64,000 bases of DNA from Parelaphostrongylus tenuis (taxonomy: Eukaryota > Nematoda > Chromadorea > Rhabditida > Metastrongylidae). Below the pieces are notes generated by a model. That model saw nothing but the letters and a program-made list of their open reading frames with translations. It was not told the origin of the DNA and ran no database searches. The stretch's first letter is position 1; each line of letters begins with the position of its first letter. The DNA lies in assembly GCA_019055375.1 (NCBI GenBank), contig JAHQIW010007131.1:496001-560000 (forward strand), read 5' to 3'. Below, piece by piece: positions 3,926 to 63,946 of the stretch. The translations under genes and the position numbers were made by a program.

Positions 3926-3937
3926 TATCCCATCTAG
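3926..3937 (+). repeat. 12-bp direct repeat, left (target site duplication)
   Basis: TATCCCATCTAG occurs here and again at 4323-4334, exactly flanking the hammerhead-bearing inverted-repeat element. An exact 12-bp match at both borders is best read as a target site duplication. Confidence 0.75.
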
Positions 3938-4040
3938 CTTTCCTTCGAGTGCTTTATTAAGAACACGCTCAAATTTCAATAGATCCTTTCATTTTTATTT
4001 GAGCCAACATGTCATGTGGTCTGGTAAGGGCTCTTGTACA

Positions 4041-4076
4041 GCCCGAGACACGTGTTTCGTCCTTACAGACTCATCG
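4041..4076 (-). ncRNA. Hammerhead ribozyme, truncated and inactive
   Basis: On the minus strand the 3' part is intact: stem II, CGAAA, the CACGTG minimal stem III, UC and UCGGGC. The 5' core reads GCGATGAG instead of CTGATGAG. The 5' strand of stem I is replaced by unrelated sequence at the inversion junction. Self-cleavage is not expected. Confidence 0.7.
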
Positions 4077-4092
4077 CAATCGAGTGCGAAAA

Positions 4093-4132
4093 CACTCTGT
4101 GTTAGGTGAATGTTTCACCTGACATAGAGTGT
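4093..4132 (+). other. Strong hairpin in the element spacer
   Basis: ACACTCTGTGTTAGGTGA pairs with the downstream TCACCTGACATAGAGTGT. The two differences from perfect complementarity are G-U pairs in RNA, giving a stem of about 18 bp with a tiny loop. It lies between the two hammerhead arms. Confidence 0.6.
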
Positions 4133-4220
4133 AAAGCGTACGTCGTCGATAACTATATATAAGGAGTGTAAGGCTCCCAAGAGAACTGACTATAAAAAGA
4201 TCGACATACGACGGGTTTCT

Positions 4221-4263
4221 GCCCGGCTGATGAGTCTGTAAGGACGAAACACGTGTCTCGGGC
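4221..4263 (+). ncRNA. Hammerhead ribozyme, type I, intact
   Basis: All core elements are present. Stem I GCCCGG (4221-4226) pairs with TCGGGC (4258-4263). CTGATGAG is at 4227-4234. Stem II (GTCT/GGAC) is closed by a GTAA loop. CGAAA is at 4245-4249. Stem III is the minimal palindrome CACGTG, closed by A15.1-U16.1. The cleavage triplet is GTC, with the cut after C4257. Outer stem I can extend through GGG (4213-4215) with GCCC further downstream, leaving an internal loop that could contact loop II. The short stem III is typical of hammerheads in Penelope-like elements, which are thought to work best as dimers. Confidence 0.9.
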
Positions 4264-4322
4264 TGTACAAGAGCCCTTACCAGACCACACGACATGTTGG
4301 CTCAAATAAAAATGAAAGGATC

Positions 4323-4334
4323 TATCCCATCTAG
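4323..4334 (+). repeat. 12-bp direct repeat, right (target site duplication)
   Basis: TATCCCATCTAG, identical to 3926-3937, immediately follows the right arm. Confidence 0.75.
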
Positions 4335-7300: not shown

Positions 7301-8462
7301 TTTCTGTGTTTTCCAAGTAACGCGTGCTTGGGTCTAACTGCATAATCCGGCATGTTTTTGCTGTCTTGATGACAGTCGATTTCTTTCACATTCATCTCCC
7401 TTTCCCTGCCTTCTTCCCATCAAATTAATTAGGAAAAATTAATATTACTCACTCATCGTCTCTTGTAAAATGCGACTCACGCAGGTACCAGATAGTTTTT
7501 TTTGCAATAGGTGTGTGATATATCTAGAACAAGTTCAATTTTTCTGCTCTGCTTGAAAAAAGTAACATTACATGCGAGGACATTACGAAAGTCGACCGAC
7601 GATACTGTTGAACTTTGCTATATCTATCACTCTGTTCTTCTTACGATTTCACTTATATTAATGAGAATTCTCAATCCTCTTGAAGTACTCTTGATCATTT
7701 GTTGGAATCAGAAAGCTATTTTAAGTATTTTCAAATGGTATACTCGTTTTATCAATATGTGTCATAATGAAATAGATATCGCCGTGTATAGAGTAACTGA
7801 TAATCTTATTTGAAATTATTCAGTGATATGCAAACATCTGATACCAAGTAGGAGCTGAACAAAAAACAACCTCAAAAAAAGGTCTCCGAACTCCATTGTG
7901 TGGTCCGATGTTTCACATATCACTGAATATTCTTGAATGTATAACTAGATCATCGTAACACTGCTAAAAAGCAGTAAAAGAAGGATTTCTGATAATTTTG
8001 TTCGAGATGAGTAGCAAATATGATTACAGTGAGCGGGCGCAAATGAGGGCACATGAGTGAAGCGACTAAGCATTGAAGCATACGCGTGCGATCCAGTAAA
8101 GGTTGACAGTACAAAGGTTTTGACCGTCACACACTTGTATCTGGAGTGTGCCTGATAATTACTTTTGAGTCAAACATGTGGTTTATTATGACCACTTTTG
8201 GAGTGAATACATGCGTTTTGGCCTTGTAGACTCGTCAGTTGCACAGTGCCTTTCGTCTGAGCCATTCCCTCCTGAGGAGCAGCCCCCTTACATAGTGGAA
8301 CCGCAGATGTAATATTTACACGCATTGTGCAATGATAAAATCACCGTGTTTTGCACTCGATTTCTCCTTGACTGATAATCGTGAGATATCATACCGTTCT
8401 TTCCGAATGTTTTCATAGGACCTTCAATAATCTCAATGTGCCATCTGATTACTTCCGAAGGA
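4335..8462. other. Non-coding, repeat-derived interval
   Basis: No exon could be supported. A tRNA-Ser-like fragment lies at about 5204-5275. Segments at about 6010-6390 and 7000-7160 share words (CTTGGTTCTTGA.AA.GGC, TTTATTCTTGTTGCT) with the foldback region near 27.5-29.2 kb. Open frames such as 6124-6390 align weakly with frames in that same repeat (28906-29139), which marks them as repeat sequence rather than genes. Confidence 0.5.
5204..5275 (+). repeat. tRNA-Ser-like relic
   Basis: GTAACCGAGTGGTTAACGCC resembles the D-arm/A-box of a class II tRNA and is followed by an ACTCGAAAT anticodon-like loop. No clear T-arm or acceptor pairing exists. Either a tRNA pseudogene or a SINE head. A similar GGCCGAGTGGTTAGTG segment lies on the minus strand near 20195. 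Confidence 0.3.
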
Positions 8463-8612
8463 TATAACATGCTTTGACCCATGGACTTAGTGTTATACAG
8501 GCGCCTGTTTCGTCCTAACGTGACTCATCAGCAGCGCCGTCCTAGGTTCAGCCAATCCCTTATGGCTATACTCCTCTATGAAGGGATAGACACCGAGCAA
8601 TATATTATAAAA
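8463..8612 (-). mobile_element. Hammerhead-element unit, left arm of a split inverted pair
   Basis: On the minus strand this copy shows the family order: a block like GGAATCGGCGCC (here CTCGGTGTCTATCCC), GGTTC, the hammerhead, then a TTTGAGCCATAGG-like block (GGGTCAAAGC). It aligns with the 63-kb units and, inverted, with 10270-10430. Confidence 0.55.
8490..8538 (-). ncRNA. Hammerhead ribozyme, core intact, stem I weakened
   Basis: The minus strand carries CTGATGAG, a stem II closed by GTC/GAC, CGAAA, the palindromic CAGGCGCCTG stem III and UA before the cleavage site. Stem I (GCGCTG with TAACAC) has two mismatches, so activity is doubtful. Confidence 0.7.
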
Positions 8613-10269: not shown

Positions 10270-10430
10270 TCTCCTGCTCGGCGTCGATCCCCTCATAAAG
10301 TAGTATATCCTTGAGGCATCGGTTGAACCAAGTACGGTACTAGTGATGAGTTCCGTTAGGACGAAAGAGGCGTCTGTATAGCACATCATTTTTGTTTGAG
10401 CAAGGTTAACAAAAAAAGCGGTATAATGAA
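10270..10430 (+). mobile_element. Hammerhead-element unit, right arm of a split inverted pair
   Basis: CTCGGCGTCGATCCCCTC, a GGTTGAACC block, the hammerhead, then TTTTTGTTTGAGCAAGG and AAAAAAGCGGTATAAT. The order matches the 63-kb units. It is the inverted partner of 8463-8612, so the pair keeps the minus/plus divergent layout with about 1.7 kb now between the arms. Confidence 0.55.
10337..10384 (+). ncRNA. Hammerhead ribozyme, degenerate
   Basis: GTGATGAG replaces CTGATGAG (the essential first C is lost). Stem II TCC/GGA and CGAAA are kept. Stem III is GAGGCGTCTG and no longer a palindrome. TATAGCAC and stem I GTACTA still largely pair. Predicted inactive. Confidence 0.7.
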
Positions 10431-33273: not shown

Positions 33274-33553
33274 AGCGCATGCGGCGCAATGGTTAGAGGT
33301 GCTCTAAGTCGCACACGAGGTCACTAGTTCGATCCAACGCTTATGGTTCACAAAGCCATCCATCCCTTCGGGATCGATAAATTGATACCAGACTGGTCTC
33401 AGAATTGTCTTGGAGAATAAGCAGCACTGACTCGGTTCAGCGGGAGGCCACCGCGAGTCATTGTAAAAGCCAGATATGCATTCCATCATCTCAAATGAAG
33501 TTGAAAATTGAACACTAATGCATGGCGCATCCCTCAGGGATTGATCAACGCCA
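33274..33553 (+). repeat. tRNA-derived SINE, family 1, copy 2
   Basis: One of the better preserved copies. A-box GCGCAATGGTTAGAGGTGC and B-box AGTTCGATCC are spaced as in a tRNA. Then come AAGCCATCCATCCCTTCGGG, CTCGGTTCAGCGGGAGGCCA and a CTCAGGGATTGATCAACGCC end. Confidence 0.8.
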
Positions 33554-46000: not shown

Positions 46001-49000
46001 CAAGCGAACAGGCGTCTTAAATTCTGATTCTCATTTGATTAACCCGCAGCGCACCTGTCATTATATACCCTCCTCGTTAGAGCTACTAGAACCTTTTCTA
46101 ACATACCACAGTCTATTGGAAATGACTCGAAACTGAATGAAAAAAAAACTAAATAAATCAATGCTGCGAAGGCAATATTGGGATAGCACAATATTTCATG
46201 ACGTGTCGAGTACAAGAAAAGTAACTTATACGTGGTACAGAGACTTCAGATGTAGGCAAATTGGGGCAACAAATTCAACAAAAGTCTTGGATTTTGTCAT
46301 CTATTCATAATTGAAAAATATATTTTGAATGACTTTTTCTCATTTAGTGCGTTTGGATCGTTTATATAACGAGGTGCACTTTATATGAGGAGAAGTCCGC
46401 CAGAGAATTTAACACATTGATAGTTTTTCGACGAGTATTTATAGTTTCAAGATGGAAAGTGTAGAACCAATAGCGTTTATAATAATCTAAACAGGTATTG
46501 AATATTCTTACGGCGGCTCTGATGATCACATCCTCGTCTCGAATCAACTTCACTGCTGTTCTAAATGTACTCATACCTCTGTTACTCGATCCGAAAAGAC
46601 GGGTAAGGTGAGTTAATTAGATTACATTGATTGACAGTCACACAACTCCAGACCGATGGTAAGGCAATACCAAATTCGCGCGAATAGAAAGGATTGCTTA
46701 ACCCATCTCTTTGAGAACAAAATCTTTGTGGCGAATGTTCGATTCCTTCTGCTGCTGTATCCCATTGGAATTCAAAGAACATCAACTACGCCATCCAGTT
46801 TCCATAGACAGGCGAACTTCAAAAGTAGTTTTCTGCCGCAGGAATGTCATATGAACCGGAGCAAGCCTATCCTTTAGCCAGAGCAGTTTTCTCCGCTTCA
46901 TAGTTTCGCAGCAACCAAAACTAACTTGAAACTTGAATCATGATGGTTCACGACGGAGAGGACATTTTGAGCCACTGAACATTGAAAGAGGTCACATTTT
47001 ATTAGGTCATTGTGCACTGCGTCGTACACGAAGTCAATGGTTCAATTTCGCGCTCATGACTCACAAGCCAGCCGTGCCACCGCGGTTGGTAACTTGGTAC
47101 CAGACTGCTCTCAGACTTGTTTGGGAGGATAAGCAGCACTCACTCGGTTCAGCGAGAGGCCACCGCAAGTCATTGCAAAGGCCAGATATGCGTTCAATCA
47201 CTTCAAACAAAGTTAAAATTTGAAGACGAATGCATGGCGCATCCCTTAGGTATTGATCAACGCCGAGAGCTTTATCCTTTTCTTATTGCGAAGCAGCCAC
47301 AATAACTCATGGTCTAATTAAGCTTGCCACAAGCGATTCTAGGAGATAGTTGAAAAAGAAGTGGAAGCTTATTTGCTCATTAAGCTCGCAAAGTATTTTT
47401 AGTATCAAAACTGGTCCCTTTACTGCTTCACGTCTCATGTTGGCAACATGTACTTTCAGAAATCGAAGTAGAATATACAAATCAGAATCCTTTCCAGAAA
47501 GTAGAACAAGCTGGGAATTGTGGTACTTCCATTTAGAGCTAACCTAATATTAAATCCTTTAATGAGATCCTAGAGAATCACTCGTAACTTTATAGCTTAA
47601 AATCTGTAAAATAAAGACCAAATCAAAAGGGCACAGTACGGGAAATATGATGCGCTTTATGACCGGCAAGCGACCATAGTCTGCTGAACAATTCAAGTGG
47701 GACAGGGGCGGAGGTGGATTTAACTAGGGTCACTTTAAGATATCCAATGGATCACGCCATTGCTGATGGAAAAGATATTATGGAGTTTCAGGCTAGCCGC
47801 TTTTGAACAGCTTTCTGTGGTTGGTTATATGATGAATGGAAAGATAGACACACTTTTGAAGATGGTCAAGGATGCCGAAGGCCGCCATTCCGCCCGTGGA
47901 CTCAGTAATGCTGTTATGGTATGCTGAAGATTTTTGTCAGTAATACGGAAACATCCTGAGTGGCATTTGAAGAAAATTAATCTTTCACTTGAGGAAACTA
48001 TCAGAAAAATCCCTTATAAAACAAGGTTGCTTTTTGATGTAGTAAAAATAATACCTTCAATTTTGAAAATGTGAATAAAATGGCAAACAAATGTGACACT
48101 TTTGTGGAAACTATTCCAAGTCCAGTTAGGACTAAAATTTATATTCACCTTTGTTTCTAATATTACATTATAATAAGCACTGATTTGAATCAAATGATGA
48201 ACAATAGACAGCTGTTTTTCGAAGACTTCGTTATGGATCGCTTCAGTTTCAATTATTCATTTGTCTAATAATCAGGCTCGCCTTCGTCGGCAAACGCTAC
48301 CTCGTATCCGATATGACGGTTTGATTGACTACTCCACACCGCCAGTCAATGACTCCTTCGGAGTGCCGGAATCAGAATTGGGAGAAGCAGACAACCTCGA
48401 TCTAAAGTGGATTCTCTATGCGGGTGAAAATGATACTGGTGGCAGGTATCTTTTTCAACTTGAAGATTTGCATTTTGAGGAGTGAATTTGGATAAAAAAG
48501 AAACGGATTAAGAATAAAGGAACAAAAAACCAAAAACAAATTTATTCTATATGAGAAACTCTCGGGTTGCAAAACTTTCTCTTTTCTTCAGATTTGCAAC
48601 ACATTTTTGCTCCTATTACGTAGAACTTTTATTTTTTTCAATCATGTCTTCAAGGCTTTTTGCCATATGGGATTTCGATAAGAGCATTTCAGACCAATTT
48701 CGCCGCTGAGCATAGTAGCAGGGGTGACGAGAGGATATCTTGCTTATAAATCTCATAAGACTCCAGCAATGGTCAACGGAAAGGTTTGTTCAACACTTTC
48801 TATCAGTCAGGGACAAGATATTATGAAGAGCACTTTTATTCAATGATCAGCCTGATAAAATTGTTTTAACTATAATCAGAGATAACCTGCAAATGTAAGG
48901 GCATATTAATGAAAGTAAATTGATTAATGTCTTGTAATGGGAGGCATATAAGTGCATTGGATAGTAGTGATATACTGTAGCGACAAAATAAGGTTCGGCC

Positions 49001-62961: not shown

Positions 62962-62973
62962 CCAAATTAATAG
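62962..62973 (+). repeat. 12-bp direct repeat, left (target site duplication)
   Basis: CCAAATTAATAG occurs here and at 63935-63946, exactly bordering the four-unit hammerhead array. Confidence 0.85.
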
Positions 62974-63057
62974 TTCTGCTATCGACTGCTTTTTTACAGA
63001 CCCGCTCAAAATGATTTAATCTGATAAGGATATGACTTATTTTGAGCCATAGGTCTA

Positions 63058-63105
63058 GTGCTATATAGGCGCCTATTTCGTCCTATTGGGACTCATCAGT
63101 AGCAC
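63058..63105 (-). ncRNA. Hammerhead ribozyme, intact (array unit 1)
   Basis: Minus strand: GTGCTA, CTGATGAG, TCC-CAATA-GGA, CGAAA, the palindrome TAGGCGCCTA, UA, then TAGCAC. Stem I has 6 bp. Minimal stem III. Cut predicted between 63064 and 63063. Confidence 0.9.
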
Positions 63106-63341
63106 CCTCCCTCGGTTCCGTCGATCCCTTGAGGTTAAATAATCCTCTAAAGGAATCGGCGCCGAGTAAAAACTAATTACCCAAAGTCGGATGATGGTCT
63201 TACCTGACTTTGTGGTGACCGGCAGTCGAGCTTACGGCTTTTAAAATGAACTATACTTCTGCTATCGACTGCTTTTTTTACAGACCCGCTCAAAATGATT
63301 TAATCTGATAAGGATATGACTTATTTTGAGCCATAGGTCTA

Positions 63342-63383
63342 GTGCTATATAGGCGCCTATTTCGTCCTATTGGGACTCATCAG
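63342..63383 (-). ncRNA. Hammerhead ribozyme, stem I strand deleted (array unit 2)
   Basis: Core and stems II/III are as in unit 1, but about 14 bp including the 5' strand of stem I are missing right after CTCATCAG (plus orientation), joining to GTTCCGTCG. Cleavage should be lost. Confidence 0.85.
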
Positions 63384-63570
63384 TGTTCCGTCGATCCCTT
63401 GAGGTTAAATAATCCTCTAAAGGAATCGGCGCCGAGTAAAAACTAATCACCCAAAGTCGGATGATGGTCTTACTTGACTTTGTGGTGACCGGCAGTCGAG
63501 CTTACGGCTTTTAAAATGAACTATACTTCTGCTATCGACTGCTTTTTTACAGACCCGGAACCGAGGGAGG

Positions 63571-63618
63571 GTGCTACTGATGAGTCCCAATAGGACGAAA
63601 TAGGCGCCTATATAGCAC
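63571..63618 (+). ncRNA. Hammerhead ribozyme, intact (array unit 3)
   Basis: GTGCTA 63571-63576, CTGATGAG 63577-63584, stem II TCC/GGA with CAATA loop, CGAAA 63596-63600, TAGGCGCCTA 63601-63610, cut after A63612, TAGCAC 63613-63618. The triplet is ATA. Confidence 0.9.
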
Positions 63619-63853
63619 TAGACCTATGGCTCAAAATAAGTCATATCCTTATCAGATTAAATCACTTTGAGCGGGTCTGTAAAAAAGCAGTCGATAGCAG
63701 AAGTATAGTTCATTTTAAAAGCCGTAAGCTCGACTGCCGGTCACCACAAAGTCAGGTAAGACCATCATCCGACTTTGGGTGATTAGTTTTTACTCGGCGC
63801 CGATTCCTTTAGAGGATTATTTAACCTCAAGGGATCGACGGAACCGAGGGAGG

Positions 63854-63901
63854 GTGCTACTGATGAGTCCCAATAGGACGAAATAGGCGCCTATATAGCA
63901 C
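63854..63901 (+). ncRNA. Hammerhead ribozyme, intact (array unit 4)
   Basis: Identical in sequence to unit 3, with the predicted cut after A63895. The two plus-strand sites are 283 nt apart. Confidence 0.9.
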
Positions 63902-63934
63902 TAGACCTATGGCTCAAAATAAGTCATATCCTTA

Positions 63935-63946
63935 CCAAATTAATAG
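63935..63946 (+). repeat. 12-bp direct repeat, right (target site duplication)
   Basis: CCAAATTAATAG, identical to 62962-62973. Confidence 0.85.

Follow-up and report, generated by a model that had tools for sequence, protein, structure and literature searches.

Divergent retrozyme arrays in Parelaphostrongylus tenuis: apparent copying into a chromosome break from both sides, probably by a Penelope-like element

The hammerhead array studied here lies in a 64,000-nucleotide stretch of the P. tenuis genome (hereafter the window). It very probably represents a single insertion of a metazoan (non-LTR) retrozyme, a non-autonomous element for which a GIY-YIG Penelope-like element (PLE) would have supplied the mobilising enzyme. 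The array appears to have been copied into the cut chromosome from both ends at once, each from a different spot on the RNA. The layout, the modal 12-bp duplication and the start-site spacing of about 50 nt all match those of PLEs in the same genome, arguing that this is a retrozyme with a PLE insertion layout.

The array is built of divergent 283-nt unit repeats, about 2.1 units on the minus strand followed by about 1.4 on the plus strand, with unit positions numbered from the inferred ribozyme cut (U1). Its features are listed below.

62962..62973, no strand: left target site duplication CCAAATTAATAG, 12 bp, exact repeat
62974..63555, minus strand: minus block of the retrozyme, ~2.1 units; outer end U90 (start site 2), inner end U62
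63058..63105, minus strand: type I hammerhead ribozyme motif, Rfam 29.5 bits (cut-off 34)
63354..63390, minus strand: hammerhead core, stem I damaged by a 14-nt deletion in the same unit
63556..63934, plus strand: plus block of the retrozyme, ~1.4 units; inner end U227, outer end U39 (start site 1)
63571..63618, plus strand: type I hammerhead ribozyme motif; inferred cleavage after 63612
63619..63679, plus strand: predicted hairpin 1 (U7-U67), start site 1 in its apical part, from the circular fold
63687..63737, plus strand: predicted hairpin 2 (U75-U125), start site 2 in its loop, from the circular fold
63854..63901, plus strand: type I hammerhead ribozyme motif; inferred cleavage after 63895
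63935..63946, no strand: right target site duplication CCAAATTAATAG, 12 bp, exact repeat

An earlier note, made from the letters of the window, had described four units of ~285 bp, two on each strand and each with a hammerhead motif, bordered by an exact 12-bp repeat at 62962..63946. The two minus-strand and two plus-strand motifs are indeed present in the 283-bp unit, as the pattern CTGATGAG...CGAAA occurs at 63076 and 63360 (minus) and at 63577 and 63860 (plus), with 0.05 occurrences expected by chance per window. There are four motifs but not four full units (about 3.4), and the coordinates hold with the duplications included, the element proper spanning 62974-63934. The border repeat is exact on both sides, and the window contains no third CCAAATTAATAG, even when one mismatch is allowed. 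Scored with the Rfam Hammerhead_1 model, as the note had proposed, three of the four motifs reach 29.5 bits, under the gathering cut-off of 34, whereas the fourth, in a unit without 14 nt (U233-246; stem I and its surroundings), reaches 20 bits as type III. This deletion, at 63384, is confined to the inner minus unit, the rest of the array being near-identical, and possibly arose by slippage of the reverse transcriptase on folded RNA. The unit has no open reading frame (ORF), as the longest stop-free run in the tripled unit is 62 aa, and its G+C content is 44%; no LTR structure was found in the repeat list of the window.

A search of the assembly (481.5 Mb, 5105 contigs) with the window array returned at least 288 matches (40 of 2630 candidates scored). 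Forty loci were fetched and five flank duplicates (L022, L041-L044) removed, giving 35 independent loci, referred to as family A. Ten of them contain units in a single orientation and 25 in both, and all 25 two-orientation arrays are divergent, with the minus block on the left, the plus block on the right and the units pointing outwards. The flanking repeats are not a chance recurrence, a case in which the note would have failed: an exact end repeat of at least 10 bp is found in 28 of the 35 loci, compared with 37 of 2000 mispaired ends, although in two of the 28 the repeat is no true duplication of that length, being a simple repeat at L009 and element sequence at L047. Together with the expectation for the hammerhead pattern, this mispaired-end control rules out a chance origin of the hammerheads and duplications. 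The modal duplication is 12 bp (15 of 35 loci), and the 44 duplications scored in family A and a second family, B (see below), are all different, so these are independent insertions.

Empty sites were sought by comparing the joined flanks of 14 family A loci with the genome, which gave at least five continuous matches over the junction (40 of 2322 candidates scored). The match for L011 (99% over 180 bp) is probably an empty allele, and those for L012, L013, L029 and L034 (86-89%) lie in repeats or paralogues; in base-by-base alignment the target is present once in each of the five, with some paralogue bases differing. The left flank of the window array itself has a single match in the assembly, and no empty allele of the array was found there. 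The genome search that the note had called for thus yielded many copies with tabulated orientations and duplications, and the duplications across the family, with empty sites at at least five of the 14 loci tested, bear out its view that the whole array went in together and made a target duplication of its own.

Several further copies were observed. At L045 (2070-7140), an 18-unit array of 5.1 kb lies within a single 13-bp duplication, its sides comprising ~13.7 and 4.3 units. Near-identical flanks occur twice in inverted order on one contig for L021/L022 (contig C1308) and for L040/L041 (C4390), and four times on three contigs for L039/L042/L043/L044; these repeated-flank arrays are inverted segmental duplications, haplotypes or assembly palindromes. 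Within the window, divergent relatives (~80%) of the family A unit lie at 8458-8609 (minus) and 10275-10384 (plus), the former beginning at about U38, near start site 1.

The outer ends of the arrays are strikingly regular. Scoring left out L047, L009 (whose flank is a simple repeat) and three loci that lack an exact duplication of at least 9 bp, L014, L016 and L031; the scored set comprises 30 loci, 22 of them with both orientations. All 52 duplication-anchored outward ends in this set fall in two zones, U26-47 (median 39, 29 ends) and U86-105 (median 91, 23 ends), and 21 of the 22 arrays with both ends scored have one end of each kind, L040 being the exception. Read by hand, L009 and L016 also have one of each (the left end of L014 was not placed), and the window array fits the same rule, with U90 on the left and U39 on the right. 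The longer block favours neither site 1 nor site 2 (10 of 22 arrays). In the eight scored insertions with a single orientation, the other end joins the flank at varied unit positions, and a second priming is therefore not always visible.

Since the outer ends are two recurring start points while the inner junctions vary, the data support an inversion that arises during the insertion, one of the two timings that the note had allowed. A pre-formed inverted array moved as DNA, an inverted-repeat DNA transposon or an assembly artefact would also give a compact, ORF-less, inverted structure with a target duplication, and such an origin would suit the pairs L021/L022 and L040/L041, each of which is a near-identical inverted duplication within a single contig. 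We regard this group of explanations as extremely improbable, as inner junctions and unit numbers vary, five empty sites exist, and the outer ends correspond to two positions ~51 nt apart on the unit, not to the identical terminal inverted repeats and fixed ends of a MITE. An assembly artefact in particular is unlikely to explain the architecture, given that 44 different duplications accompany it.

Insertion from two start points is not limited to family A. The window contains a second insertion of the same type, which belongs to family B.

3926..3937, no strand: left target duplication TATCCCATCTAG of the family B copy, 12 bp
3938..4322, both strands: family B copy, 322-nt unit, divergent, with minus block 3938-4075 and plus block 4076-4322
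4323..4334, no strand: right target duplication TATCCCATCTAG of the family B copy, 12 bp

The family B unit has a G+C content of 42%, a longest stop-free run of 77 aa when tripled and a hammerhead that scores 34.9 bits with Rfam Hammerhead_1, above the cut-off. Twenty-one loci were found with a query shaped like the window copy, which biases their inner junctions, and the 14 with an exact duplication of at least 9 bp were scored (L052, L053, L054, L055, L062, L064 and L065 were dropped). Outer ends lie at U50-73 or U109-126 in 27 of 28 cases, and 13 of the 14 loci have one of each, with L066 as the exception.

Elsewhere in the window, Pfam searches of 10 ORFs gave two hits, both below cut-off: a weak reverse transcriptase fragment at 1699-2169 on the plus strand (PF00078, 4.3e-5) and a Tuberin match (E 0.05). 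A stretch at 2612-2837, which may be a SINE or the 3' end of a non-LTR element, has further copies at 47014 and 51377 (about 75% identity); a repeat at 33276, 81-84% identical to the 47014 and 51377 copies, falls into the same group. Inverted repeat pairs of 79-80% identity lie at 27128-27206/27321-27243, 28506-28658/29182-29031 and 21918-22007/22793-22702.

The same genome contains PLEs with this insertion layout. A search for GIY-YIG endonuclease frames returned at least 150 matches (150 scored of 1723 candidates), with open frames of up to 902 aa, and among the matches listed, neighbours less than 6 kb apart comprise 20 minus-plus, one minus-minus, one plus-plus and no plus-minus pairs. One of the divergent pairs, L069, is a head-to-head PLE with an 893-aa ORF encoding both RVT_1 (1e-11) and GIY-YIG (2.4e-7) domains, the hallmark of an autonomous PLE that the retrozyme unit lacks. 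This pair also has direct repeats of 105 bp, a second copy that is inverted and 5'-truncated, and a duplication of 12 bp. The best named relatives of the PLE protein searched from this genome, in Necator (59% identity), Ancylostoma (52-63%) and Haemonchus (about 53%), point most likely to a strongylid nematode as the host; a search of the PDB by sequence gave nothing for the PLE ORF. For the other 19 pairs the ends alone were fetched, and 18 of the 20 pairs were alignable (L100/L101 and L102/L103 have no alignable ends). In all 18, one end lies 53-67 nt and the other 101-122 nt past the ribozyme-cut motif, which was read by eye, Rfam detecting no hammerhead in L069; all 18 pairs thus have one end of each kind. 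The duplication is exactly 12 bp in 10 of these pairs, and in three it is 7-8 bp, within chance.

Pooled over families A and B and the PLEs, 52 of 54 insertions have one end of each kind (P = 8e-14 under independent 50% end choice), and in 52 of the 54 scored insertions, retrozyme and PLE, the "tail" between the two start sites is present on one end. Median spacing of the start sites is 51 nt in family A, 52 nt in family B and 46 nt in the PLEs. BLAST found no match between units A and B and the PLE copy L069. The layout that retrozymes share with PLEs of the same genome is a circumstantial link to the PLE enzyme.

Twin priming, in which both sides of a break prime cDNA, is known to produce inversions with target duplications and in this respect resembles the array. 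If unrelated LINE machinery had acted in the manner of L1, one cDNA would start at the RNA 3' end and the other internally. In the arrays, by contrast, both starts are fixed, recurring internal hairpin positions, with no 3' tail plus random site, the products are multimeric, and GIY-YIG PLEs of the same genome show the same measured end features. An L1-like origin is accordingly highly improbable, and we retain a PLE as the probable enzyme.

The earlier note could not match the layout to a named family. This part of its reading does not stand, as inverted head-to-head copies with a target duplication and a one-end "tail" are the PLE layout, both in the rotifer inserts described in PMC3846280 and in the PLEs of this genome; the unrecognised part is a retrozyme as the carrier. 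The 2013 rotifer study reports head-to-head inverted repeats with 8-10 bp duplications, where the modal value in our arrays is 12 bp, and a tail that is optional on one copy (PMC3846280). According to Frangieh et al. 2024, purified anole PLE protein cuts and extends both strands in vitro from two adjacent internal start sites, and the genomic "tail" is the stretch between them; the completion of integration is left open in that account (PMC11167929). Our arrays share with endonuclease-containing PLEs the head-to-head copies, the duplication, a one-end "tail" of ~30-50 nt and AT-rich targets, as far as these are documented in PMC3846280 and PMC11167929, as well as two internal start sites (PMC11167929), but the window array differs from such PLEs in having no ORF and a 283-nt unit.

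As a class, the arrays fit the metazoan non-LTR retrozymes outlined in PMC7229834: type I hammerheads, short ORF-less tandem units (150-450 bp, typically ~300 bp; here 283 and 322 nt), low G+C (42-44% here), a dispersed multi-copy distribution, target duplications (>4 bp) when present, and PLEs in the same genome. That 2020 study names PLEs as strong candidates for mobilisation and leaves the mover of animal retrozymes open, PLE or LINE mobilisation being suspected only; the present array comes from a nematode. Divergent arrays, two recurring start sites and a one-of-each rule are not part of its description, and its main text does not contain the words "inverted" or "orientation" (PMC7229834). 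Plant LTR retrozymes are likewise hammerhead-flanked non-autonomous retroelements with a proposed circular RNA route (PMC4918200), yet they are characterised by type III hammerheads, LTRs, PBS/PPT and 4-bp duplications (PMC7229834); here the hammerhead is type I, the duplication is 12 bp, and neither type III motifs as a class feature, LTRs nor 4-bp duplications are seen.

The blocks themselves bear on the template. In family A, 29 of 44 blocks are longer than one unit, reaching 13.7 units, and a single inner end of 44 lies within 5 nt of the ribozyme cut, which disfavours a linear monomer template ending at the cut. Because blocks run past one unit and inner ends lie away from the cut, the templates would be circular or unprocessed multimers, and a long unprocessed multimer RNA could give the same arrays. 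An inverted half could also be generated if the cDNA or RNA folded back and primed on itself. Such self-priming has been proposed for rotifer PLEs, there on an antisense template, and palindromes are reported at inverted junctions of Adineta PLEs (PMC3846280). In our data, none of 46 inner junctions joins positions closer than 5 nt, that is, none is palindromic (the family B junctions among them being shape-biased by the query), which excludes a fold-back palindrome as the general route, and two distinct recurring outer ends, one of each per array, are not expected from self-priming. We therefore consider self-priming very unlikely and favour priming from both sides of the break.

If both sides prime, a simple account of the one-of-each rule is that both 3' ends prime on one circular RNA, one per hairpin, so that the rule would reflect a pair of sites on a single molecule. 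Family A divergence favours this account, averaging 1.4% between the blocks of a locus (0.8% between units of a block) and 3.4% between loci, with the proviso that these block figures come from an aligner that also appears to have misplaced position U175 and may contain similar errors. No fixed difference between the sides is seen in nine of 25 loci (among them L009, L015 and L021 over 283 positions), and in loci other than L011 identical sister RNAs would look like one RNA. Family B has no homogeneous blocks, since units within a block (5.7%) differ as much as the two blocks of a locus (5.0%; 7.0% between loci).

At L011, direct realignment shows that five plus units agree with one another and differ from the single minus copy at U129, U150, U199 and U207, four positions at which both states occur in other family A loci. 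Because the two sides carry different family-segregating variants, at least this insertion appears, as judged from sequence, to derive from two distinct RNAs, one for each side; gene conversion after the insertion could also account for the difference. In the first alignment, two or more side-specific segregating variants were seen in four of 25 two-orientation loci (L010, L011, L016 and L039). Direct realignment left none at L010 and only U161 plus an indel at L039, and the side-specific position U175 failed realignment and looks like an alignment artefact. The signal at L016 is known from the first alignment only, so that the suggested two-template case is the one locus, L011. Copying of both sides from a single RNA is, on this balance, the rather unlikely reading, and we prefer two primings that may draw on separate RNAs.

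Predicted folds place the two start sites in comparable structures. The circular folds of units A (-81.5 kcal/mol, z -3.6 vs 200 shuffles) and B (-97.6 kcal/mol, z -6.4 vs 200 shuffles) both have site 1 apical in one predicted hairpin and site 2 apical in the next. Compared by eye, hairpin 2 has a similar stem and a similar position in L069 (CAGUCGG/CCGACUG) and in family A (CAGUCGA/UCGACUG), and the hairpin 2 stems of families A and B differ by one compensating change. Within family A there is little variation, with few double changes in hairpin 1 (counts for its small inner helix are unreliable, the reference row being gapped one base out of register) and none in hairpin 2, so that covariation is too sparse to prove the stems.

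The target sites share a sequence signature. Twenty-eight sites with exact 12-bp duplications (18 retrozyme, 10 PLE) have a palindromic half-site in common. A occurs 3 bp outside the duplication in 37 of 56 half-sites (p 5e-8) and 2 bp outside it in 39 (p 2e-9), and the third duplicated base is A or T in 54 of 56; this pattern fits a symmetric cut of both strands. As the duplication is bordered on both sides by cDNA starts, the cut would leave 3' overhangs, both of which prime. At 33 ends with exact 12-bp duplications, primer and template match at 2.36 of the first three positions, compared with 1.40 when shuffled, an excess that may partly be an effect of how the duplication borders are defined. 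Long primer/template annealing was rejected, as positions 4-10 are not enriched (477 of 3000 shuffles reach the value). The right end of the window array has nine matched positions, counting wobble.

The anatomy, end positions, duplications, empty sites, target motif and the one-of-each rule in both retrozymes and PLEs are observed directly; from them we infer a circular template, a PLE as the enzyme and the following order of steps. A tandem copy would be transcribed, its predicted hammerheads would cut the RNA into monomers of ~283 nt, and these would circularise. The PLE endonuclease/reverse transcriptase would then cut a palindromic AT-rich target, the strands 12 bp apart, leaving 3' overhangs. 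Both 3' ends would prime reverse transcription, at hairpin 1 (~U39) and hairpin 2 (~U91), normally one of each, and each cDNA would roll round its circular template for 0.1 to ~14 units. Joining of the two cDNAs at an arbitrary place would give a divergent array with the start sites outermost and a 12-bp target duplication. At L011 the two sides would derive from two different RNA molecules.

More tentatively, and with somewhat less than even confidence, we propose that PLEs must integrate from two ends and do so asymmetrically. A dimer of the protein, carrying two RNAs, would make a symmetric cut in a palindromic target, and each side would prime on a circular RNA of its own, using a different hairpin from the other side; retrozymes would be minimal RNAs that keep the ribozyme and the two hairpins, and their arrays would record such events, including template variants. 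The head-to-head layout and the "tail" are known for PLEs. What seems new is the strict form of the one-of-each rule, the case of two templates and the link to retrozymes; the open-licence full texts searched yielded neither the rule, evidence of two templates nor a retrozyme with such a layout.

Collectively, the arrays are dozens of natural single-event records in one genome, preserving start sites, joining, empty sites and an apparent two-template case. They turn the PLE mechanism into a testable scheme and make PLEs the leading candidate mobilisers of retrozymes in this genome. An RNA of ~283 nt that appears to be written into a chromosome from both ends is also relevant to RNA-templated gene writers.
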